The notes below the pieces were generated by a model. That model was not told the DNA's origin, made no database searches, and worked only from the letters and a program-made list of their open reading frames with translations. The translations under genes were made by a program, and so were the position numbers. A DNA stretch of 64,000 nt from Niveibacterium sp. 24ML (GTDB taxonomy: Bacteria > Pseudomonadota > Gammaproteobacteria > Burkholderiales > Rhodocyclaceae): assembly GCF_026586805.1 (NCBI RefSeq), contig NZ_JAPFHA010000005.1:62001-126000 (forward strand), in the 5' to 3' direction. This document shows positions 10,682-22,700 of this stretch, piece after piece; within the stretch, counting starts at the first letter, position 1, and the number at the start of each line of letters is the position of its first letter.

Positions 10682-11500
10682 ATGACATTCCTCAACGCCC
10701 GAATTGCGCTCCTTGCCTTGCTGTGGCTGCTCGTGTCACCTGTGAGTGCGACAGAAACCTGGCAAGCGCATACCGCGCTGAATCGCCACTTCAAACAGGC
10801 CGGCCTGGTCGGCACCATCGTCGTGTTCGACGATGCCAGCGGCGCCTGGGCCGCATCCGATTCGGCCCGCGCCTACGCCCGCTACCTGCCGGCCTCCACC
10901 TTCAAGATCCCCAACACCCTGATCGCGCTCGAAAGCGGCGTCGTGGCCGACGAGCAGGCGGTGTTCAAGTGGGACGGCAAGCGCCGCTTCCTTGACGCCT
11001 GGAACCAGGACCAGACGCTGCAGTCCGCCTTCCAGGTTTCGGCGGTGTGGACTTACCAGGAGATCGCCCGCAAGGTCGGCGCGCCGGCGATGCAGCAATA
11101 CCTGTGGGCCTTCCGCTACGGCAATGCGCGGCCCACGCCCAAGCTCGACAGCTTCTGGCTCGATGGCGATCTGCGGATCTCGGCGGTCGAGCAGATCGAA
11201 TTCCTGCGCCGTTTCAACGAGGGCGCCTTGCCGCTCTCGCCGCGCACCACCGCAATCGCCCGCCGCATCATGCTGCGCGAAGAGGCCGACGGCCTGCGCC
11301 TGTTCTACAAGACCGGCTGGGCCGACGACGCGAAGCCGCCAATCGGCTGGTTCGTCGGCTGGCTCGAACGGCCCGCCGGCAAGGTCTACTTCGCGCTGAA
11401 CATGGACATGCCCAAGGGTATGGAGCAGGCCCCGCTGCGCGAGAAAATTGCCCGCGCCGTGCTGAACGAACTTGGCTACCTGCCGGCACGCAGCAACTGA
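10682..11500 (+). CDS. class D (OXA-type) beta-lactamase
   Basis: A 272-aa secreted serine beta-lactamase. A signal peptide ([16 protein letters not shown]) leads into the penicillin-binding fold. All class D motifs are present: the active-site serine and lysine in PASTFKIPN, the SxV motif as SAV, the YGN motif in FRYGNARP, a tryptophan in SFWLDGDL, and the KTG motif in FYKTGWAD. It would hydrolyse penicillins in the periplasm; the spectrum cannot be predicted. It is followed after 119 bp by uvrA on the same strand. Composition is like the rest of the chromosome and there are no flanking mobile genes, so it looks intrinsic rather than acquired. Confidence 0.93.
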
Positions 11501-11619
11501 GGCTCGCATTCGGGGCTGGTGTTTTGTACAGTGTCGAGTCCGGCGCGCGAACCAAGTGCACCGGACCCGCTCGAACAGCCATCGCCATCCGCGGCGGCAA
11601 AGACCAAGAAGGCTCCACC

Positions 11620-14600
11620 ATGACACGCCAGGCCCCCGATTCCGCCAACACCATCCAGATCCGTGGTGCGCGCCAGAACAACCTGAAGAATCTGGACATC
11701 GACCTCCCGACCGGCGAGCTGATCGTGGTGACCGGGCCCTCCGGCTCGGGCAAGAGTTCGCTGGTGTTCGACACGCTCTACGCCGAGGGCCAGCGCCGTT
11801 ACGTCGAGACCTTCTCGCCCTACGCGCGGCAGTTCCTTGACCGCATGGACAAGCCGCAGGTCGATCGCATCGACGGCGTGCCGCCCGCCATCGCCATCGA
11901 CCAGACCAACCCGGTGCGCACCTCGCGCTCCACGGTCGGCACGATGACCGAGCTGAACGACCACCTGAAACTGCTGTTCGCGCGCTGCGGCCACCTGCAT
12001 TGCAAGCGCTGCGGCGCGCCGGTGAAGCGCGATAGCGCCGAGACCATCGCGGCGGCGCTCACCGAGCGCACCAAAGACGAGGACCCGCGCCTCGCGCTGG
12101 TCGCGCCGGTGGCGATTCCCGCCAACTTCAGCGAGGCCGAGATCCGCGCCGCGCTCGAAGCGCAGGGCTACGCGCGGATGCAGCCGGTGGGCGAGCGCAC
12201 GATGGCGGTCGTGGTCGACCGCTTCCGTTTTTCCAACGCCGAACCCGCGCGTCTGGCCGAGGCGCTGGAGGCGGCGCTGCGGCTGGCGAACGGCCGTGTC
12301 GAGGTGCATGTCGGCGGCGAGGTCGTCGCGGATGCGAGCAAGCCGGTGTGGAAGTTCTCCAGCGACCTGCACTGCGCCGAGTGCGACATCCACTACGCCG
12401 ACCCCACACCGGCGCATTTCTCCTTCAACAGCGCGGTCGGCGCCTGCGAGGCCTGCCGCGGTTTCGGCCGCGTCATCGGCATCGACCCCGGCCTGATCAT
12501 CCCCGACGAGTCAAAGAGCCTCGCCGACGGCGCGATCAAGCCCTGGCAGACCGAGAGCTACAAGGAATGCCAGACCGACCTCGCCAAGTTCGCCAAGAAG
12601 CATGGCGTGGCGATGGACATCCCCTGGCGCGACCTGCCCGAGGAACACCGCCGCTGGGTCTTCGAGGGCGACGAGGGTTGGGTGAATTGGGACAAGTCCT
12701 GGCCCGGCAAGTGGTACGGCGTGCGCCACTTCTTCGACTGGCTGGAGACCAAGGCCTACAAGATGCACATCCGGGTGCTGCTGTCGCGCTACCGCGCCTA
12801 CACGCCCTGCACCGTGTGCGACGGCGCGCGGCTCAAGACCGAGCCGCTGCTGTGGCGTGTCGGCACCCGCGAAGACGCGGACCGTGCGCTGGCACCTAAC
12901 CTGCACCGCTTCCGCCCGCACGGGGTGGCGATGCGCGCCGAGGTGTTCGACACGCTGCCCGGCCTCAATGTGCAGGACGTGATGCAGCTGCCGATCGCGC
13001 GTGCCAAGCAGTTTTTCGACACCCTCGCGCTTCCCGGCAACCTCGACCAGGCCACCGAGCAGCTGCTGGGCGAAATCCGCAGCCGCCTCGGCTTCCTCTG
13101 CGATGTCGGGCTCTCCTACCTCACGCTGGATCGCCAGAGCCGCACGCTCTCCGGCGGCGAGGTGCAGCGCATCAACCTCACCACCGCGCTGGGCACCTCG
13201 CTGGTGAATACGCTCTTCGTGCTCGACGAGCCGTCGATCGGCCTGCACCCGCGCGACATGGACCGCATCAACGGCGTCATGCACCGCCTGCGCGACGCCG
13301 GCAACTCGCTGATCGTGGTCGAGCATGACCCGGCGGTGATGTTCGCCGCCGACCGCATCCTCGACATCGGCCCCGGCCCCGGCAAGCAGGGCGGCGAGAT
13401 CGTGTTCTGGGGCACACCGGACGAACTCCGTGCCCGTACCGACACGCTCACTGCCCAGTACCTCGGCGGCCACCGCCGCGTCGATGCGGGCCTCGCGCCG
13501 CGCGAAGTGGCCGAGTGGACGCCGCGCCTCACCTTGCGCGGTGCGCGCGCCAACAACCTGCGCGGCGTCGATCTCGCGCTGCCGCTGCACCGCTTCGTCG
13601 CGGTCACCGGCGTGTCAGGTTCCGGCAAGTCCACGCTGATCCAGGACGTGCTCTACCCGGCGCTGCAGAAGCACTTCGGCCAGGCCAGCGAGGCGCCCGG
13701 CGCCTTCGACGCGATCGACGGGCTGGACGAAATCACCGGCGTGGTGATGGTCGATCAAACGCAGATCGGCAAGACCACGCGCTCCAACCCGGCCAGCTAT
13801 GTCGGCGCCTTCGACAGCATCCGCAAGCGCTACGCCGCGCTGCCCGAAGCCGCACAGCGCGGCTACACAGCGGGCACTTTCTCCTTCAACGCCGGCGACG
13901 GCCGCTGCCCCACCTGCGGCGGCAACGGCTTCGAGCATGTCGAGATGCAGTTCCTCTCCGACGTCTACATCCGCTGCCCGGACTGCGACGGCCGCCGCTT
14001 CCGTGCCGAGGTCATGGAGGTGAAGCTCGAAGGCCGCTCGATCGCCGACGTGCTCGACATGACCGTGGCCGAAGCGCTGGACTTCTTCTCGAAAGACGCC
14101 GAGCTGGCGCGCGCGCTGCAGCCGTTGGTCGACGTGGGGCTGGATTACCTCACGCTCGGCCAGCCGGTGCCCACGCTCTCCGGCGGCGAGGCGCAGCGCC
14201 TCAAGCTCGCCGGTCACCTCGCGCAAACCGCCGAGGCGCTGCACCGCAAGGGCAGCAAGGCGAAGAAGGCGGCACCCAAGGAACATCTACTTTTCCTGTT
14301 CGATGAGCCGACCACCGGCCTGCACTTCGACGACGTCGCCAAGCTGCTGCGCGCGCTCTCCAAGCTCGTCGATGCCGGCCACTCGGTGCTGGTCATCGAG
14401 CACAACCTCGACGTGATCGCCGCCGCCGACTGGGTGGTGGACCTCGGCCCCGAGGGCGGCGACGGCGGCGGTGCCATCGTGTTCGAAGGCAGCTCGGCGG
14501 CGTTGCTCGATGCCGACACCCACACCGGCCGCGCGCTTGCCGACTACCGCGCGCGCATTGCTGCGCCGGCGGGGTTCACCACAAAGGCCCAAAGAGCCAC

Positions 14601-17364
14601 TAAGGGCCACGAAGAAAAGCCGGGTAGTTCCTTTGTGGCCCTTGGCGGCCCTTCGTGCCTTCGTGGTGAAGCATTGCTCGCCGCCGAGCCCCGAGCGCAG
14701 TACGTCCCTGCGCGGCGCGACGCGATTGGTGTGGAGCGTGCGCGCGAGCACAACCTGAAGAACGTCTCGGTCGAGATTCCGCACCGCCGCTTTACTGTGG
14801 TTACCGGCGTGTCGGGTTCGGGCAAATCCACGCTGGCCTTCGACATCGTCTTCGCCGAAGGCCAGCGCCGCTACCTCGAATCGCTCAACGCCTACGCGCG
14901 GCAGTTCGTGCAGCCGGCCTCAAAACCGGACGTCGACGCGATCTACGGCATTCCGCCCACGGTGGCGATCGAGCAGCGAACCAGCCGTGGCGGGCGCAAG
15001 AGCACGGTGGGCACGCTCACCGAAATCCACCACTTCCTGCGCCTGATGTTCGTGAAGCTGGGCACCCAGCATTGCCCGGATTGCGACTGCGCGATCGAGC
15101 CGCAATCGCCCGACGCCATCGCCGCGCGCCTGCTGCGCGATTACAAGGGCCGCGAGGTCACGCTGGCCGCGCCGCTGGTCATCAACCGCAAGGGCCTCTA
15201 CACCGACCTCGCGAAGTGGGCCGCCAGCAAGGGCTACGGCCAGCTGCGGGTGGATGGCGACTTGCTGCCTACCAAGCCCTGGCCGCGGCTGGACCGCTTC
15301 AAGGAACACATCATCGAACTGCCGGTCGCCACGCTGAAAGTCGGCGCCCGCAACGAGCCCGAGCTGCGCGAAGCGCTCGCCAAAGCGCTGGAGTTCGGCA
15401 AGGGCGTGCTGCACCTCATCCACGACGAACAGGTCGTCGTGTTCTCCACCAAGCGCGCGTGCCCGTCTTGCGGCACCAGCTTCCCGGAACTCGACCCGCG
15501 CCTGTTCTCGTACAACTCCAAGCACGGCTGGTGCCCTGACTGCATGGGCACCGGCCACACGCTGCCCAAGTGGCTGCGCGACGCCATGCGCGACCCCGAG
15601 GGCGACGCCACCGCGGCCGAATTCACCGGCCTGCGCTACGAAGGCGAAGCGGGCGAAGACGAAGAGGTCGAGCCCGAAACCGAATGCGCCGCCTGCGAAG
15701 GCGCGCGCCTCAACCCCACCGCGCTCGCGGTGCGCTACCGCGACAACAGCATTGCGGACTATGCGCACCTGTCGGTCGAGGGGCTGGCGGACTGGGTCGG
15801 CACGCTCAAACTCGCGGGCCGCGAGGCCGAAATCGGCCGCGACATCGTCAGCGAACTCAAGTCACGCCTCGCCTTCCTGAAAGACGTGGGCCTCGGCTAC
15901 CTCGCGCTGGACCGCGCCGCGCCCACGCTCTCCGGCGGCGAGGCGCAGCGCATCCGCCTCGCCTCGCAGCTGGGCACCAACCTGCGCGGCGTCTGCTACG
16001 TGCTCGACGAACCCTCGATCGGCCTGCACCCGCGCGACAACGCCATGCTGCTCGACACGCTGCACGCGCTCGAAGCCAAGGGCAACACCGTGGTCGTCGT
16101 CGAGCACGACGAAGAGACCATCCGCCGCGCCCACCATGTCATCGACATGGGCCCTGGCGCCGGCACCCGCGGCGGCAACATCGTTGCAGAGGGCGACGCG
16201 GCGGCGCTGATGGCGGTGCCCGAATCGGTCACCGGCCGCACGCTGCGCGCGCCACTCGCACACCCGCTGCAACCGGCGCGGGTAGTCGATGCCGAGACGC
16301 CCATGGTCACCGTCGAAGGCGCAGCGCTGCACAATCTCAAGAACGTCACCGCGCAGATCCCGCTCGGCCGCCTCATCGTCGTCACCGGCGTGTCGGGCTC
16401 GGGCAAGTCCACGCTCGCGCGCGACGTGCTGCACAAGAACCTGCGCCGCCTCGTGGCCACGCAGGCCTTCAACAGCCGCACCAAGGGCGCGAAGGTGGTG
16501 CTGGAAGGCTGCGAGGCCATCATCGGCTGGCAGCCGGTCGGCCGCGTGCTCGAAGTCGACCAGACCCCCATCGGAAAGACGCCGCGCTCCTGCCCGGCCA
16601 CCTACATCGGCTTCTGGGACGCTATCCGCAAGCTCTACGCGGACAGCGAAACCGCGCGCCTGCGCGGCTGGGCACCGGGCCGCTTCTCCTTCAACACCGC
16701 CGGCGGCCGCTGCGATGCCTGCGACGGCCAGGGCCAGCGCACCGTCGAAATGAGCTTCCTGCCGGATGTGAAAGTGCCCTGCGACGTCTGCAACGGCGCG
16801 CGCTTCAACACCGACACCCTCACCGCCACCTGGCGCGGCAAGAGCATTGCCGACGTGCTGGCGATGGAGATCGACGAAGCGGTCGACTTCTTCGCCGCCC
16901 ACCCGACGATCCAGCACCCGCTCAAACTCCTGCAGGACGTCGGCCTCGGCTACCTCACCCTCGGCCAACCCTCACCCACGCTCTCAGGCGGCGAGGCGCA
17001 GCGCATCAAGCTCGTCACCGAACTGGTCAAGGTCAAGACCGACCCCGCCGCGCGCGCCCGCGCCAAAACGCCGCACACCCTCTACGTGCTCGACGAACCC
17101 ACCGTCGGCCTGCACATGGCCGACGTCGAAAAGCTCATCCACGTCCTCCACCGCCTCGTCGACGCCGGCAACACCGTGCTCGTCATCGAACACGACCTCG
17201 ACGTCATGGCCGAAGCCGACTGGATCGTGGATCTAGGCCCCGAAGGCGGCGACGGCGGCGGCGAAATCGTCTTCGCCGGGCCGGTGGCGAAATGCGTTAA
17301 GGCGAAGACGCATACGGGGAAGGCGTTGAAGGGGTTCCTCGCCTCACGGGTACGAGAAGCGTAG
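11620..17364 (+). CDS. uvrA: double-length excinuclease ABC subunit UvrA (tandem UvrA-UvrA)
   Basis: A 1914-aa protein containing two complete UvrA units, each about 940 aa. Four ABC ATPase sites are visible: Walker A motifs G(P/V)SGSGKS at about residues 39, 664, 1063 and 1590, and LSGGE signatures at about 510, 852, 1437 and 1788. Zinc-finger CxxC pairs occur in both halves (CAEC/CEAC, CTVC, CPTC/CPDC, then CPSC/CPDC, CAAC, CDAC/CDVC). UvrA scans DNA for bulky lesions with UvrB in nucleotide excision repair; a bacterial UvrA normally has about 940 aa and works as a dimer, so this chain is a covalent dimer. Residues 986-1017 at the junction are encoded by an inverted repeat. I chose the ATG before [17 protein letters not shown]. 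Confidence 0.93.
14575..14670. repeat. palindromic repeat inserted in frame between the UvrA halves
   Basis: A 96-bp inverted repeat. The arms are 14575-14614 and 14631-14670 (33 of 40 positions identical, several others G-U compatible) around a 16-nt centre. It begins TTCACCACAAAGGC and ends CTTCGTGGTGAA. This type of sequence (TTCACCAC...GTGGTGAA) usually lies between genes. Here it contributes exactly 32 codons (FTTKAQ...CLRGE) to the linker between the two UvrA units and keeps the frame. Its length, 96 nt, is a multiple of three. Confidence 0.85.
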
Positions 17365-17462
17365 GTTGGGCTGAGCGATGGGAAACCCCGCCGACGTGTT
17401 GCATTGCTCGACGACAGCTAAGTAAGGACAATTCGGTCCATCCACTCAATCCGAGTCCAACT

Positions 17463-18215
17463 ATGGCAGTTGTCACCCCTGAACAGATCCTTGACGACCT
17501 TTGTGATTCCGTTTCCGAAGCGCTGCGTGACGGCTATTTGAAGCTCGTCAGTTACGGTAAAGGCCAGGCGCGGCGGGAGTCGACGGAGAACGAAGAAAAG
17601 ATCGGCAGTATCCTGCAGGCAACGGTCTCAAAGAATCCGCTCTTCAAAGGTGCGATGACATTCTCTGTTGCCCAGAATGGCAGCTGGTACGACTTTCTTG
17701 TGGAGTCGGGAGATGGGGGTATTTGGCTGCCCATCAACCTGAAGGTGTCTAGTTTGCGAGGAAACGACAACGTCGCATCGAAGGCCGGCCTCTACTATGC
17801 GATGACAGGTCAGCGCCCGGCGAATGCTGAAATCGCCAATTGGGAAGTCTTCTTCCAGAACCTCGCGGCCAACCTCAAACGTGAAGGCGCCACGAGCGAT
17901 TACTATTTTCTCGTGGTCGAGAAGAGCAAAAAGGGTGTTGGGCGCGTCTTCTGGACAAGTTTGCTAAAGCTATGTGATGCACGCCCCAATGGGAGCAATC
18001 CACCGTTCCAAGCCAAGTGGAGCGCCAACATTGAGCGTTCCAGCCGATCGCGCAGCGAGGCGGTTGATTATCTGTTGAACGTTGTCGGACAGACCTTCGT
18101 CCTGCGGGCGAGGGCTTTGGACTCGTTTAAAAAGCACGTTGTGCCGTGCCTTAGCACAACGGTGCAGACGGAATGGAGCGGAGACGGTCCCGAGGTCGAG
18201 GGAGAAGTAGATTGA
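17463..18215 (+). CDS. putative type II restriction endonuclease
   Basis: A 250-aa protein without signal peptide, adjacent to and overlapping (by 4 nt) a DNA adenine methyltransferase gene. The segment WYDFLVES followed by WLPINLKVSS (residues about 78-100) resembles the PD-(D/E)xK nuclease core: an acidic residue, then a strand with xxK; the second acidic position reads N (INLK). Length and layout recall EcoRV (245 aa), but I cannot claim homology. An upstream-cleaving nuclease role is inferred from the pairing with the methylase. The gene and its partner are visibly poorer in G+C than their neighbours, which suggests horizontal transfer. Confidence 0.6.
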   Translation: MAVVTPEQILDDLCDSVSEALRDGYLKLVSYGKGQARRESTENEEKIGSILQATVSKNPLFKGAMTFSVAQNGSWYDFLVESGDGGIWLPINLKVSSLRGNDNVASKAGLYYAMTGQRPANAEIANWEVFFQNLAANLKREGATSDYYFLVVEKSKKGVGRVFWTSLLKLCDARPNGSNPPFQAKWSANIERSSRSRSEAVDYLLNVVGQTFVLRARALDSFKKHVVPCLSTTVQTEWSGDGPEVEGEVD

Positions 18216-19438
18216 AGCGCAGACTTGATGTTGAGCGGTTGGGACAAGTCTTTACACCGCCGGCCGTTGTGAAACTCATGTTGGGCTTGCGCCAATGCCG
18301 GGGCCGCATTCTGGAGCCCAGTTGCGGCGACGGGGCGTTCTCGCGTCATCTGCCGGGCTGCGTGGCGATCGAGTTGGACCGACGTGTCGCGCCAGATTAC
18401 GCGATTTGTGGCGACTTCTTCGCATATCCGACAAGCGAGAGATTTAGCACTGTGCTGGGCAACCCGCCCTACGTGAAGTATCAGGACATCAGCATTGAGA
18501 CGCGGCGCCTGTTGGACGGTTCGCTTTTTGACGGCCGCAGCAACCTAGCGTTGTTCTTCATCGAGAAGGCGGTACGGCATCTTCAGCCGCACGGCGAACT
18601 TATCTTCATTGTGCCCCGCGAATTCATCAAACTGACGGCGGCGCGCAAGCTCAATCGTTGGCTATATGAAAACGGGACGATAACGCACTGGATCGAAACA
18701 GGCGACACGCGGCTCTTTGATGGTGCAGTCCCGAACTGCGCGATCTTTCGTTATGAGCTAGGCAACTTCACGCGGCAGACGCAGTTCCGCGAATGGCATG
18801 GAGACTGGCAGACGCGAGACTTCGTAGAGATGGATGGTCAGCTGACCTTCCCGCGTGAGCATCTGTCCGTACCCCTTGCCAGCCTATTTGAGGTCAAGGT
18901 GGGGGCGGTCTCGGGAGCCGATGGCGTTTTCGAGCACCCTGAGGGTAATGTGGAGTTTGTTTGCTCGAAGACGATCGATACGGGCCAGACTCGCCGCATG
19001 CTCTACAACGTTAAGCACGACGCACTTCAACCCTATCGCGCGCAGCTACTGCAGCGCCGGGTGCGCAAGTTTGATGACGCAAATTGGTGGATGTGGGGCC
19101 GAGCCTTCCACGACGCACCTGGCCGCCCCAGAATTTACGTCAATGGTCGCACTCGGCGTGCTGCCCCTTTCTTCACGCATCCTTGTGAGGCCTATGACGG
19201 CTCGATCCTTGCGCTCTTTCCCAAAGTCGAAGGCATGGACTTGGCCTATGCGATTAATCTCCTGAATAGCGCTGTCCCATGGCCGGACTTGGGGTTCGTT
19301 GTCGACGGCCGATTTGTCTTCAGTCAGCGCAGCCTGCAAACGCTCCTCCTGCCGGAGAGCTTCAATGCACTGCGTAGGCCTCGAGCTGTCTTGCATGAAG
19401 GTCAAGGTGCGGCCGCGCGTATCCGCAAGCGAGCCTGA
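18212..19438 (+). CDS. type II DNA adenine-N6 methyltransferase (gamma type)
   Basis: A protein of about 408 aa with the motifs of an N6-adenine DNA methyltransferase: motif X LGQVFTPPAVV, SAM-binding motif I ILEPSCGDGAFS, and catalytic motif IV LGNPPYVKYQ. The C-terminal half (about 230-400) is the target-recognition region. The order X-I-IV-TRD at the C-terminus is the gamma class (TaqI/Eco57I-like). I placed the start at the TTG that overlaps the stop of the preceding gene because motif X begins ten residues later; an upstream ATG at 18173 would add 13 Arg-rich residues. It should protect DNA from the adjacent nuclease. Recognition sequence unknown. Confidence 0.87.
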   Translation: MKRRLDVERLGQVFTPPAVVKLMLGLRQCRGRILEPSCGDGAFSRHLPGCVAIELDRRVAPDYAICGDFFAYPTSERFSTVLGNPPYVKYQDISIETRRLLDGSLFDGRSNLALFFIEKAVRHLQPHGELIFIVPREFIKLTAARKLNRWLYENGTITHWIETGDTRLFDGAVPNCAIFRYELGNFTRQTQFREWHGDWQTRDFVEMDGQLTFPREHLSVPLASLFEVKVGAVSGADGVFEHPEGNVEFVCSKTIDTGQTRRMLYNVKHDALQPYRAQLLQRRVRKFDDANWWMWGRAFHDAPGRPRIYVNGRTRRAAPFFTHPCEAYDGSILALFPKVEGMDLAYAINLLNSAVPWPDLGFVVDGRFVFSQRSLQTLLLPESFNALRRPRAVLHEGQGAAARIRKRA

Positions 19439-19569
19439 GCCTGTGTGATGAGACCGCGGGCATGCGCGCGGGTGGGTCGGACCTTCGCCACACGGGGTAG
19501 CGTGACGACACGGCGGGTGTTCCCAACGACCGACTCGACCCCAACGCAGCATCGACAGGTGTACCGATC

Positions 19570-20016
19570 ATGCCCACAGGCACTATCCGACTTCACCGTG
19601 TGCTGCGCGCGACGCCCGAGCGCGTCTATCGCGCGTTTCTGGATGCCGATGTGATGGCGAAGTGGCTACCGCCATATGGCTTCACCTGCAAGGTCCACCA
19701 ACTCGACGCCACGGTTGGCGGCACTTACCGGATGAGCTTCACGAATTTCTCGAATGGCCACGGGCATTCCTTCGGTGGCGAGTATCTGGAGCTGGTGCCG
19801 TTCGAGAAGCTTCGCTACACCGACAAGTTCGACGACCCGAACCTGCCCGGCGAGATGCAGACGACGGTGACGCTGAAGCCCGTGTCCTGCGGCACCGAGA
19901 TCAGCGTGGTGCAGGAAGGCGTTCCGGAGGTGATTCCGGTCGAGATGTGCTACCTCGGCTGGCAGGAGTCACTCGCGCAACTGGCGACGCTCGTCGAGCC
20001 CGATATCCCGGGCTGA
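19570..20016 (+). CDS. SRPBCC/AHSA1-domain protein
   Basis: A 148-aa soluble START-like (Bet v1-fold) protein. Typical features are RATPERVYRAFLDADVMAKWLPP, GGTYRMSF and the long C-terminal helix ending LGWQESLAQLATLVEP. Proteins of this family bind hydrophobic ligands or act as Aha1-like partners; a role cannot be assigned. It is a single gene with a free-standing ATG and lies 130 bp after the methyltransferase gene. Confidence 0.87.
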   Translation: MPTGTIRLHRVLRATPERVYRAFLDADVMAKWLPPYGFTCKVHQLDATVGGTYRMSFTNFSNGHGHSFGGEYLELVPFEKLRYTDKFDDPNLPGEMQTTVTLKPVSCGTEISVVQEGVPEVIPVEMCYLGWQESLAQLATLVEPDIPG

Positions 20017-20337
20017 GGCGCGATCCGCCCCTCACCGCAGAATCGCCCGCCCGTTTTACCGGCAGGTGGGCGACACGTCATAGCCGAGCGGCAGCTCGTA
20101 GGTGGGGCTGAGCAACGCGAAGCCCAACAGCTTCCGCTAATTCGAGGTTGCGTTGTGAATGTGTTGGTCTTCTCTGCTCTCATACCGCGCTACGTTTCCG
20201 ACGGCCTGAATGACGAGAGGATCTCCAAGTGGCGCGGGTCGTTTCGACCCGCGCTGAGGCAAGGGTTGCCAAGGCTTTGGCACCAAAATGAGGGGCTACG
20301 CCCCCGGCGCAAGCTTGCAGGGGGCGTTTGAGCGAAC
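20017..20337. other. intergenic region with hairpins
   Basis: A 321-bp gap between convergent genes with no convincing ORF. It has a perfect 10-bp stem, GCGCGGGTCG (20232-20241) with CGACCCGCGC (20245-20254), separated by TTT, and further GC-rich short palindromes at 20294-20330. Neither is followed by a T-run, so they are possible Rho-dependent ends or repeat remnants. Confidence 0.5.
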
Positions 20338-21564
20338 TCAGCTCTGCGGGCCGTAGCCGCAGGTCGTCGCGTGTGCGGCATCACTGTAGACAGGGTAGCC
20401 CCAGGTCGCGCCGATGAAGTACATGCAACCGATGCGACCGTCTGCATTGCGGATCAAACGGTAGAAGTTCGCTCCGGAGACGAAGCGGTCATCGCCGATG
20501 CTGTAGAAGATGGTTGCGTTTTCCGGAGACGTTTCTTCGCTCATCAAGAGCCTGCCGTGATGGTCAACCGTGAAAAGCTTGGCTCGGGTTGCGCCGCTCC
20601 AGTCGGCGTACTCGTAGCGACCCGAAAGGGTGTGCGGATGCTCGACGCGGTTGGGGAAGGGGATAGCCAGCAGCTTGCGCTGGCTGGCCAGCCAGGTGAG
20701 GTTATCGGTGGTGAAGGCGTAGTTCGTAGTTCCCAGGTGGTCCGCGGCGGGGATGCGCCGGTAATCAACCGATACGTCGAACTCGCGAAGCAGGTTGACG
20801 ACGAAGTCGCCATCTGCGACCCGTACGATCTCGTCGGCCACACCGTTGAAAACACGGAAGGGCGTCTCTTTGAGTTTGCGAAATCCTTTGCCGTATTCGC
20901 TTGCCGGAGGCGAACTGAAGAGTCCCGAGAACGCGCCGCCTGCAGGCATGACAGCCGAGAATCGGTGGGGGAAGGCGGCCGCCATCGCGTAGGCACCATA
21001 GCCACCCATACTGAAACCGCTCAGGCTGATTCGTGTCGGGTCAATCAGGTACTTGGATTGAGCGTCTTTGATGACGGCGTCGATGAACGCTTCGTCGTGG
21101 CCCCATCCGCCTTCAAGCGGTGAGACGACGATTGCCGGAACATCAGCAATTCCGTGAGCAATTGCATAGTTGACGCCATCACCGCGGAGTTCTTCCATCG
21201 TCTTCTGGCCGGAGGCCGAGGAGCCATGGAGGTACACCACCATTGGCCATACGCGTCCTCGCATGTCGAACCGACCAGAGGGCGTGTTGGCAAAGCCTTT
21301 TGGCAAGTACACCAGGTACTGCGACGACATCCCGACCGGCGTGGCCAGTGTCTGCGTTACGAAGCTTCCTGCAGACGCCGTGGGGGTCGTTTGATCCGCC
21401 GCTGCAACGGCGCGTGCTTGCACGCTTGGTTCCGCGGACGCTTGGGCTGTGGGGTTGCTGGCGGGTGTGTCTCCACCTCCACCGCAAGCCGCCAGCGCCG
21501 TTACCGATAGAAGCAGCGCAATGCGTAGACTCGCCGAAGCGGCGAAAAGTCGATCGATCTTCAT
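20338..21564 (-). CDS. lipoprotein alpha/beta hydrolase (esterase/PHB depolymerase-like)
   Basis: A 408-aa predicted lipoprotein. The N-terminus MKIDRLFAASASLRIALLLS ends in lipobox LAAC followed by Gly residues, then a Thr/Ala/Pro linker to about residue 75. The hydrolase domain has MVVYLHGSSASGQK (oxyanion), the nucleophile elbow GFSMGGYG, an Asp in GVADEIV, and a His in PAADHLG. A C-terminal extension of about 130 residues, containing WSGATRAKLF and GCMYFIGATWGYP, has no family I recognise. It probably hydrolyses esters at the outer membrane or cell surface. It lies next to the IS element. Confidence 0.82.
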   Translation of the reverse strand: MKIDRLFAASASLRIALLLSVTALAACGGGGDTPASNPTAQASAEPSVQARAVAAADQTTPTASAGSFVTQTLATPVGMSSQYLVYLPKGFANTPSGRFDMRGRVWPMVVYLHGSSASGQKTMEELRGDGVNYAIAHGIADVPAIVVSPLEGGWGHDEAFIDAVIKDAQSKYLIDPTRISLSGFSMGGYGAYAMAAAFPHRFSAVMPAGGAFSGLFSSPPASEYGKGFRKLKETPFRVFNGVADEIVRVADGDFVVNLLREFDVSVDYRRIPAADHLGTTNYAFTTDNLTWLASQRKLLAIPFPNRVEHPHTLSGRYEYADWSGATRAKLFTVDHHGRLLMSEETSPENATIFYSIGDDRFVSGANFYRLIRNADGRIGCMYFIGATWGYPVYSDAAHATTCGYGPQS

Positions 21565-21831
21565 TCCAACTCTCCTGTCATCGTTATATGTTGTCCAACG
21601 GCACGACGGCACATTGTTGCGGGGACGTCGAGTCCGCATTGCATGGTATTGGCACCTGAATGTTGATTGCATTTCAGTGCGAGCAGGACGTGAGCTTTTA
21701 CACACGTGACCTCACTCACATGAACAGGTGCTGACAACGCGCAAAGCACGGCGAGTGCGAGCACCAGAGTCGGCGACCGTCTTGAAGGGCGACTGCCGTC
21801 CTGTGGCAATCAACTTAGCCTGTGTTCACAA

Positions 21832-22583
21832 TTAGTCAAATCGTTTGACTGCGCATGCCAGTTGCACAAAGGACAAGTAGCTGGCATCAAGCTTGTCGTA
21901 GCGGGTGGCGATCCGTCGGTATTGCTTGATGCGATTGAAGAAGCGCTCGATCAGGTTGCGTCGCCGGTAGAGCTTGCGGCTGAACCGACGCGGCTCAATG
22001 CGATTGGCGCGGGGTGGAATCACCGCCTTGGCGCCGTTCGCTTTGATCGCATCAACGAAGGCGTCGGCGTCGTATCCCTTGTCGGCGATGAGCGCCCCGA
22101 GCGGCAATGCTTCAACCAGCTCGTGTGCGCAGGCGATATCGGCAATCTGTCCGGCAGTCAGGATCACCCGCAAGGGATGCCCCAGCGCATCGACCGCCAA
22201 ATGCAGCTTGGTGCTCAATCCGCCACGGGATCGGCCGAGCGCTTGCGGCCCGGCTTTTTTTGGGCGCCGGCCGCATGCTGATGGGCCCGCACGATGGTCG
22301 AGTCGATCAGCACTTGCTTGAGTTGCGCGTCAGCGGCCAACGCCTGAGCAATGCGTTCCCACAGGCCAGCATCGCGCCAGCGTGCGAAGCGAACATAGGT
22401 CGAGTGCCAGTTGCCCAGTTGGGTGGGGAGATCGCGCCATGGGCTACCGGTCCGCGCGATCCAGAGCACTGCTTCGACAAATTTCCGATTGTCCGCTGCG
22501 GTTCGACCTCGATCGCCTGCTTTCCCGGGAAGAAACCCTTCGATCTTCTTCCACTGCCTATCACTCAACACGCTGCGATTCAT
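21832..22583 (-). CDS. IS5-family transposase, made by -1 frameshift
   Basis: Two overlapping frames encode one DDE transposase. The first frame (22583 down to 22215, 122 aa, MNRSVLSDRQWKKIEGFLP) holds the N-terminal part and the first DDE aspartate in VLIDSTIVRAHQHA. The second frame (ending 21832) holds the second aspartate in ALIADKGYDADAF and the glutamate in RRRNLIERFFNRIKQYRR. An A7 run (T7 at 22255-22261 on the plus strand) sits at the overlap; a -1 shift there gives GAQKKAGPQALGRSRGGLS, the continuous IS5/IS427-group sequence. Both frames are intact, so the element may be active. Confidence 0.85.
22255..22261 (-). other. A7 slippery site for transposase frameshift
   Basis: Seven consecutive A on the minus strand (CAAAAAAAGCC). 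Reading without shift gives a short protein ending PVAD-stop; slipping back one base continues into the second frame. This is the typical expression control of IS5/IS427-group transposases. Confidence 0.75.
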
Positions 22584-22700
22584 CCTGATTTCTGCGCAAA
22601 GAGCAGGATGTAAACACAAATCATCAAATGTGAACAGATCCTGGTGATGGGGGCGAGGATGCGCCACCTATCACGATGCGCGCGCCCCGATCCGGTTCAA

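Follow-up and report, generated by a model that had tools for sequence, protein, structure and literature searches.

Can a protein that carries an asparagine where restriction enzymes of the PD-(D/E)xK fold usually carry an acid serve as the nuclease of a restriction-modification system? The question is raised by two overlapping genes in a stretch of 64,000 nucleotides of Niveibacterium sp. 24ML (hereafter the window), which a first-pass annotation had read as a restriction-modification pair lying in DNA of unusual base composition. The putative nuclease gene, R (17463..18215, + strand), opens with ATG and encodes 250 amino acids, and the methyltransferase gene, M (18212..19438, + strand), opens with TTG and encodes 408 amino acids; both frames are intact and they overlap by four bases, just as that annotation had placed them. 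An in-frame ATG at 18173 would lengthen M to 421 amino acids, but the TTG start is favoured because the four closest relatives (L047, L028 = L048, L030 = L049 and L031 = L050) have the same TTGA stop/start overlap, which upholds the proposed coupling of M to R through a TTG start. A purine-rich stretch directly 5' of the TTG (18198..18207, + strand) may be its ribosome-binding site.

The contrast in base composition is real: 17463-19438 has a GC of 0.571, and the window as a whole has 0.668 (z -3.2), a value as low being reached by one of 311 same-size steps in the window; GC3 is 0.65-0.67 in the pair and 0.86 in the upstream frame. The low-GC stretch extends beyond the pair to about 22.7 kb (17365..22700; GC 0.592 against 0.675 in the rest of the window) and holds the R-M pair and, by reading, an SRPBCC-like gene and transposase frames, the last belonging to a transposase-like gene that is split between two overlapping - strand frames (21832-22667). 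The pair is flanked by the SRPBCC-like gene and by a uvrA-like frame of 2105 amino acids (both names by reading). This uvrA-like frame (11047-17364) is of double length; in five of six other genomes of the genus its best match lies within frames of 1924-1943 amino acids, in which a second stretch matches as well. In G398, of the same genus, window positions 19500-19965 are matched at 91% near the same uvrA-like gene, and neither R nor M was found within the 1.5 kb examined near that gene, while G402, also of the same genus, carries a relative of M (66%) about 1.3 kb from it without R; the R-M locus is therefore variable within the genus.

The gamma-type adenine methyltransferase of the first-pass annotation is indeed a gamma-class, TaqI-type N6-adenine DNA methyltransferase, matching Pfam Eco57I (E 4.1e-16), the PADLOC MTase_II model PDLC03282 over residues 3-384 (E 1.7e-119) and the TaqI methyltransferase in the PDB over residues 9-156 (E 5e-15). 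Its motifs follow the gamma order, with motif I (EPSCGDGAF) before NPPY and both before the C-terminal half, and both motifs are present in the intact reading frame.

The window R alone matched only BTG in Pfam (E 0.087), nothing in NCBIfam or PADLOC, and PDB chains at E 0.084 at best. Twenty R relatives (alignment A1) reached E 0.082 in Pfam, in single members, and nothing in PADLOC, and their profile reached E 0.37 at best against the PDB; among 71 relatives there were single-member matches in NCBIfam (best 2.3e-4), weak matches of three members to the PADLOC REase_II model PDLC03575 (best E 2.8e-4) and matches of one member each to two further PADLOC models, and the profile of the 71 met no PDB chain at E up to 10. 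Ten relatives searched against PADLOC gave one weak REase_II match (PDLC03396, E 0.0088, in L192) and none to PDLC03575, the three members that match this model possibly lying outside the ten. In PHROG, the phage protein cluster phrog_3978, labelled 'endonuclease', was matched by 20 of the 20 members of A1 (best E 1.6e-138) and by the window R itself (E 2.7e-12). The earlier statement that the protein has no clear family thus stands for useful scores in Pfam, NCBIfam and PADLOC; PHROG has an endonuclease group.

The relatives of R span several bacterial phyla, one archaeal bin (Altarchaeum), mycoplasma prophages and cyanophages. A single-sequence scan with R alone found nothing in the genome contigs or the viral contigs, nor did M alone in the viral contigs; searching with an alignment recovered 84 R relatives among 155 candidates in the genome contigs, of which 80 were kept, and 74 of 91 candidates in the viral contigs, some of them near-copies. 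Cellular carriers, many of them metagenome bins, include Aromatoleum, Pseudothauera, Uliginosibacterium and Dactylopiibacterium as well as Helicobacter, Campylobacter, Bacteroidales, Saccharibacteria, mycoplasmas, the Altarchaeum bin and others. Among annotated phages 47 records match R, and the 20 of these that were listed include mycoplasma prophages, in which the R relative precedes a gene annotated as a cytosine-specific methyltransferase, and Prochlorococcus and Synechococcus phages, in which it is annotated 'restriction endonuclease' and lies beside a 'DNA adenine methylase'. No plasmid matched R at E 0.01, M at E 1e-30 or a Campylobacter R at E 1e-4. Within the host family, the Rhodocyclaceae, 20 of 395 genomes have a match to R at E 0.01; 16 of the matches are near-full-length (window included), one is a fragment (G552) and three are weak; two of the weak ones (L044 and L046, E 0.007) lie over frames reading as hisG and are spurious, and the third (L045, E 0.007) was left out. 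A separate sample of the phylum gave two matches in 398 genomes, one from the window genome itself and a second with E 1.7e-4. Two long Pseudothauera frames of 710 and 724 amino acids (L055 and L057), considered as fusions, look by eye like open frames over the upstream gene and were set aside. In Helicobacter saguini (L090:2768-6127) an R-like domain lies in frame inside an apparent DNA topoisomerase I (a frame of 1119 amino acids), with the D, N and K residues present and the Glu region apparently lost, and an insertion or an assembly fault is possible there.

R relatives mostly have a putative methyltransferase for a neighbour. Counting as linked any methyltransferase-motif ORF that overlaps R or lies within 150 bases of it, a test that relies on a short motif and position and not on full homology, R is adjoined by such an ORF in 68 of the 80 loci from cells and 64 of the 74 from viruses, and among control ORFs more than 1500 bases from R the motif occurs in 2 of 202 and 0 of 82, respectively; the pairing proposed from the window alone is thereby supported. 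The partners differ between the two settings, being mostly of the NPPY type in cells (66 of 80 loci, two of them with the partner on the other strand from R, against two of the DPPY type) and mostly of the DPPY, beta-like type in the viral loci (60 of 74, against four NPPY). Of the 12 cellular misses, four are at a contig end (L068, L100, L104, L126), two show by eye pieces of the same methyltransferase in broken frames (L089, L105), two are partial R matches (L110, L125), one is the domain inside the topoisomerase I-like frame (L090), and three are stand-alone R genes (L051:3405-4190, L052:3971-4897 and L058:1781-2656), for which no adjacent methyltransferase was found among the neighbouring ORFs examined. 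The ten viral misses comprise two at a contig end (L133, L144), one partial match (L171) and seven loci without a partner (L147, L148, L157, L159, L192, L196, L197). In the host family, 13 of the 16 near-full-length R genes adjoin M and three have no adjacent methyltransferase.

In all, the partners of R fall into three classes, gamma m6A, beta (RsrI/CcrM-like) and, in mycoplasma prophages, m5C, and a nuclease family paired with different classes of methyltransferase is what protection from restriction predicts. Separate and linked genes for nuclease and methyltransferase, as expected of a type II system, are found here both in the four-base overlap and in the conserved linkage. The mycoplasma prophage loci (L003:2399-4285, L004 and L005) stand outside the 80 and 74 loci counted above; the m5C methyltransferase of the first of them matches, over nearly its full length, PDB entry 4dkj, the CpG enzyme M.MpeI. 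In Prochlorococcus phage P-HM2 (L006:2279-3677) the pair of R and a beta-class methyltransferase is situated among replication genes.

The PD-(D/E)xK fold suspected for R emerged from structure prediction. An AlphaFold2 model built with alignment A2 (71 sequences; pLDDT 91.9, pTM 0.88) has the core of that fold, and its best solved matches are SwaI, HincII and EcoRV, with Foldseek E-values of 4.3e-6 (SwaI, 5tgq), 1.3e-4 and 0.021, respectively; the 19 Foldseek rows under E 0.001 have TM-scores of 0.33-0.60, and many HincII rows have an rmsd above 10 A. VIA-align ranked the same three enzymes highest, SwaI with Z 13.9 (197 residues, 3.8 A), HincII with Z 11.2 (188 residues, 3.6 A) and EcoRV with Z 10.7 (182 residues, 4.5 A), followed by human Rep15, a Rab-binding protein (Z 8.0), NlaIV (7.3) and archaeal Hjc resolvases (6.2-6.5). 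The presence of the Hjc enzymes lower in the fold lists could suggest that R, as a member of this broad superfamily, is a repair nuclease or resolvase whose coupling to M serves some purpose other than restriction, but they align over 107-108 residues as compared with 197 for SwaI at a far higher Z, and the linkage of R to three methyltransferase classes argues against it as well, so that we consider this reading very improbable.

The active site is where R departs from the canonical pattern. The motif in the window R is D77-x14-N92-x-K94, with INLK at residues 91-94, and the residues were counted, gaps left aside, in an alignment of the R matches that 178 of 200 loci gave, reduced to 143 distinct sequences (window included) by dropping identical aligned rows. 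The predicted 'PD' aspartate, Asp77 (WYDF; codon 17691..17693, + strand), is Asp in 136 of 136 sequences. At the Asn92-Leu93-Lys94 codons (17736..17744, + strand), where NxK replaces (D/E)xK, position 92 is Asn in 130 of 137 sequences, Gln in six and Asp in one, from an alphaproteobacterial bin (L101), and Lys94 is Lys in all 137. Glu44 (codon 17592..17594, + strand), which lies on the core helix (residues 36-57 in the model) and is predicted to bind metal, is Glu in 130 of 133 and Gln in three (L033, L039, L109); in the stand-alone R genes of L052 and L058 this conserved Glu is Gln. R therefore has the 'PD' aspartate and the lysine of the superfamily, and Asn92 stands in for the acidic residue two before the lysine. 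The substitution of asparagine for the acid, first noticed in the window, proves to be a property of nearly the whole family. A further conserved element, the loop NGSNPPFQ (residues 176-183; 17988..18011, + strand), whose columns are conserved in 141 aligned sequences, is a candidate for DNA recognition by its position only.

Asn at position 92 would be expected to weaken metal binding. One rival reading is that R has degenerated into an inactive nuclease that survives by chance or as a DNA-binding partner, with M the only gene that matters. The asparagine in place of the canonical acid speaks for such a loss, as does the retention of a homologue of M without R in most genomes of the family. 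However, an amide kept in 136 of 137 sequences alongside an invariant aspartate and lysine is a pattern of conservation and not of decay, and phages carry R beside a methyltransferase; we therefore think a dead nuclease unlikely, though it is the least improbable of the rivals to restriction.

The reading that we prefer, and regard as very probable, is that R and M form a functional type II restriction-modification system in which R has a variant PD-(D/E)xK active site. M would add N6-methyladenine to a short site in the DNA of the cell, and R, probably a homodimer of the EcoRV/HincII/SwaI type, would cut the same site when it is unmodified. Glu44 and Asp77 would supply two carboxylates for metal binding and Lys94 the usual lysine, with Asn92 as a putative neutral ligand where an acid normally helps to hold the first metal. 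The opposite arrangement, in which R would depend on modification and cut DNA that M or other enzymes have methylated, is the least probable of the explanations weighed here, as cutting M-modified DNA would presumably be self-destructive with M encoded beside R.

Two features lie beyond what the first-pass annotation contained: the broad distribution of the R family, and a mostly solitary relative of M that occurs throughout the host family and has a second copy in the window genome. In that family, 371 of 395 genomes contain a homologue of M at E 1e-40 or better (288 of 295 good genomes, 66 of 68 genera), usually without R, which is present in 16 of the 395; in a sample of the order, ten of 300 genomes match M and nine of the ten belong to the host family. 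The second copy (G000:C9:19795-21000; L202:5775-7142), solitary and 56% identical to M, lies directly before a gshA-like gene, the position of seven of the ten copies whose surroundings were examined, the others being elsewhere (L205, L211, L213); gshB-, apbE- and PTS-like genes follow the gshA-like one in several of these loci (all names by reading). In a tree of 89 NPPY-type methyltransferases, 64 R-linked and 25 solitary with identical rows removed, and with viral methyltransferases (L127 and L188 excepted) and R-linked rows shorter than 330 amino acids left out, NPPY is present in 25 of the 25 solitary copies and the motif I pattern in 23. The label R-linked or solitary takes nine changes on this tree, at least six of them by well-supported branches, and the copies interleave, long branches (L127, L188, L101), uneven composition and the midpoint root being caveats on this topology. 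One R-linked M, from a bin labelled Nitrospira (L091), groups with solitary host-family copies, by transfer or through a misbinned contig.

Since R-linked and solitary copies interleave, the host family may, judging from the sequences, have domesticated a methyltransferase of the M type. The N-terminal half of the homologues is mostly more alike to the window M than the C-terminal, recognition half, whose identity is 49-64% in the ten copies sampled and 35-80% in those linked to R, values that would fit one specificity shared by the R-linked and solitary copies. R, M and the solitary methyltransferase may all act at one site. The more exact proposal, that the solitary methyltransferase of the Rhodocyclaceae is the domesticated modification enzyme of precisely this restriction system, its specificity retained, is tentative and in our judgement rather doubtful. 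If it were true, the host family would be born immune to the R nuclease, with the core methyltransferase as protector, and restriction genes could therefore be gained, lost or carried alone. The solitary R genes were considered as proof of such protection and discarded, as the methyltransferase is present in 371 of 395 genomes regardless, and in one of the three carriers (G418, 79% complete) none was seen.

Palindrome counts around dnaA were examined for a trace of the recognition site, in 30 loci of the family and 28 controls taken from the search of the order, with L239 and L248 (family) and L270 and L275 (control) left out and upstream stretches shorter than 150 bases omitted, so that upstream counts cover 19 family and 24 control loci and downstream counts 28 and 26. 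No clear cluster was seen among the 80 words of four or six bases. Downstream of dnaA, CTGCAG was observed 17 times against 2.8 expected, in 11 of 28 loci (control 6 against 1.8), TATATA 12 times against 1.5 (control 10 against 4.3) and TCGA 77 times against 43.7 (control 39 against 26.5), the last being below expectation upstream; because the control loci show an excess of these words as well, and because the loci are related, the counts give no claim on the site. A CpG-containing site, considered from the likeness of the mycoplasma-phage partner to 4dkj, has too thin a basis to be claimed.

Restriction enzymes of the PD-(D/E)xK fold are usually recognised by their acidic residues, and a broad nuclease family with Asn or Gln at one of those positions obtained low scores or none in Pfam, NCBIfam and PADLOC. 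Such a family would test metal-dependent cleavage with one carboxylate fewer, and the tie of M to a core methyltransferase offers a concrete case of how a restriction system may give rise to an epigenetic housekeeping enzyme. A literature search of partial coverage found no paper plainly on the R nuclease family or on the core methyltransferase of the Rhodocyclaceae.

Among known systems, the type IIP enzymes R.SwaI, R.HincII and R.EcoRV have the predicted fold in common with R over 182-197 residues but no sequence match with it; since the profile meets no solved chain by sequence at E up to 10, any kinship would be one of predicted fold. Asp90 of EcoRV presumably stands at the position of Asn92 in R. 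An amide at the (D/E) position is not without precedent, because MspI and HinP1I have Asn and Gln there; neither of them, nor PvuII, is among the Foldseek and VIA-align matches listed for the R model. Passages of a review of the fold assign MspI and EcoRV alike to its beta branch, and put the N of MspI at the lysine, at odds with the (D/E) position just given (PMC4081073). M.TaqI is, like M, a gamma-class m6A methyltransferase and resembles it in the catalytic half, but because the alignment ends at residue 156 the recognition half of M is not TaqI-like by sequence. As for the solitary relatives of M, the portions consulted of the main text of a survey of orphan methyltransferases make no mention of Rhodocycl-, Azoarcus, Thauera or Dechloro- (PMC4752239). 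Conserved orphan methyltransferases, Dam and CcrM as well as those of the survey, are comparable to the M homologue, which is kept across the family and mostly lacks a restriction gene, but they belong to a different methyltransferase family, and the window genome has, besides its solitary copy, an M that is linked to R.
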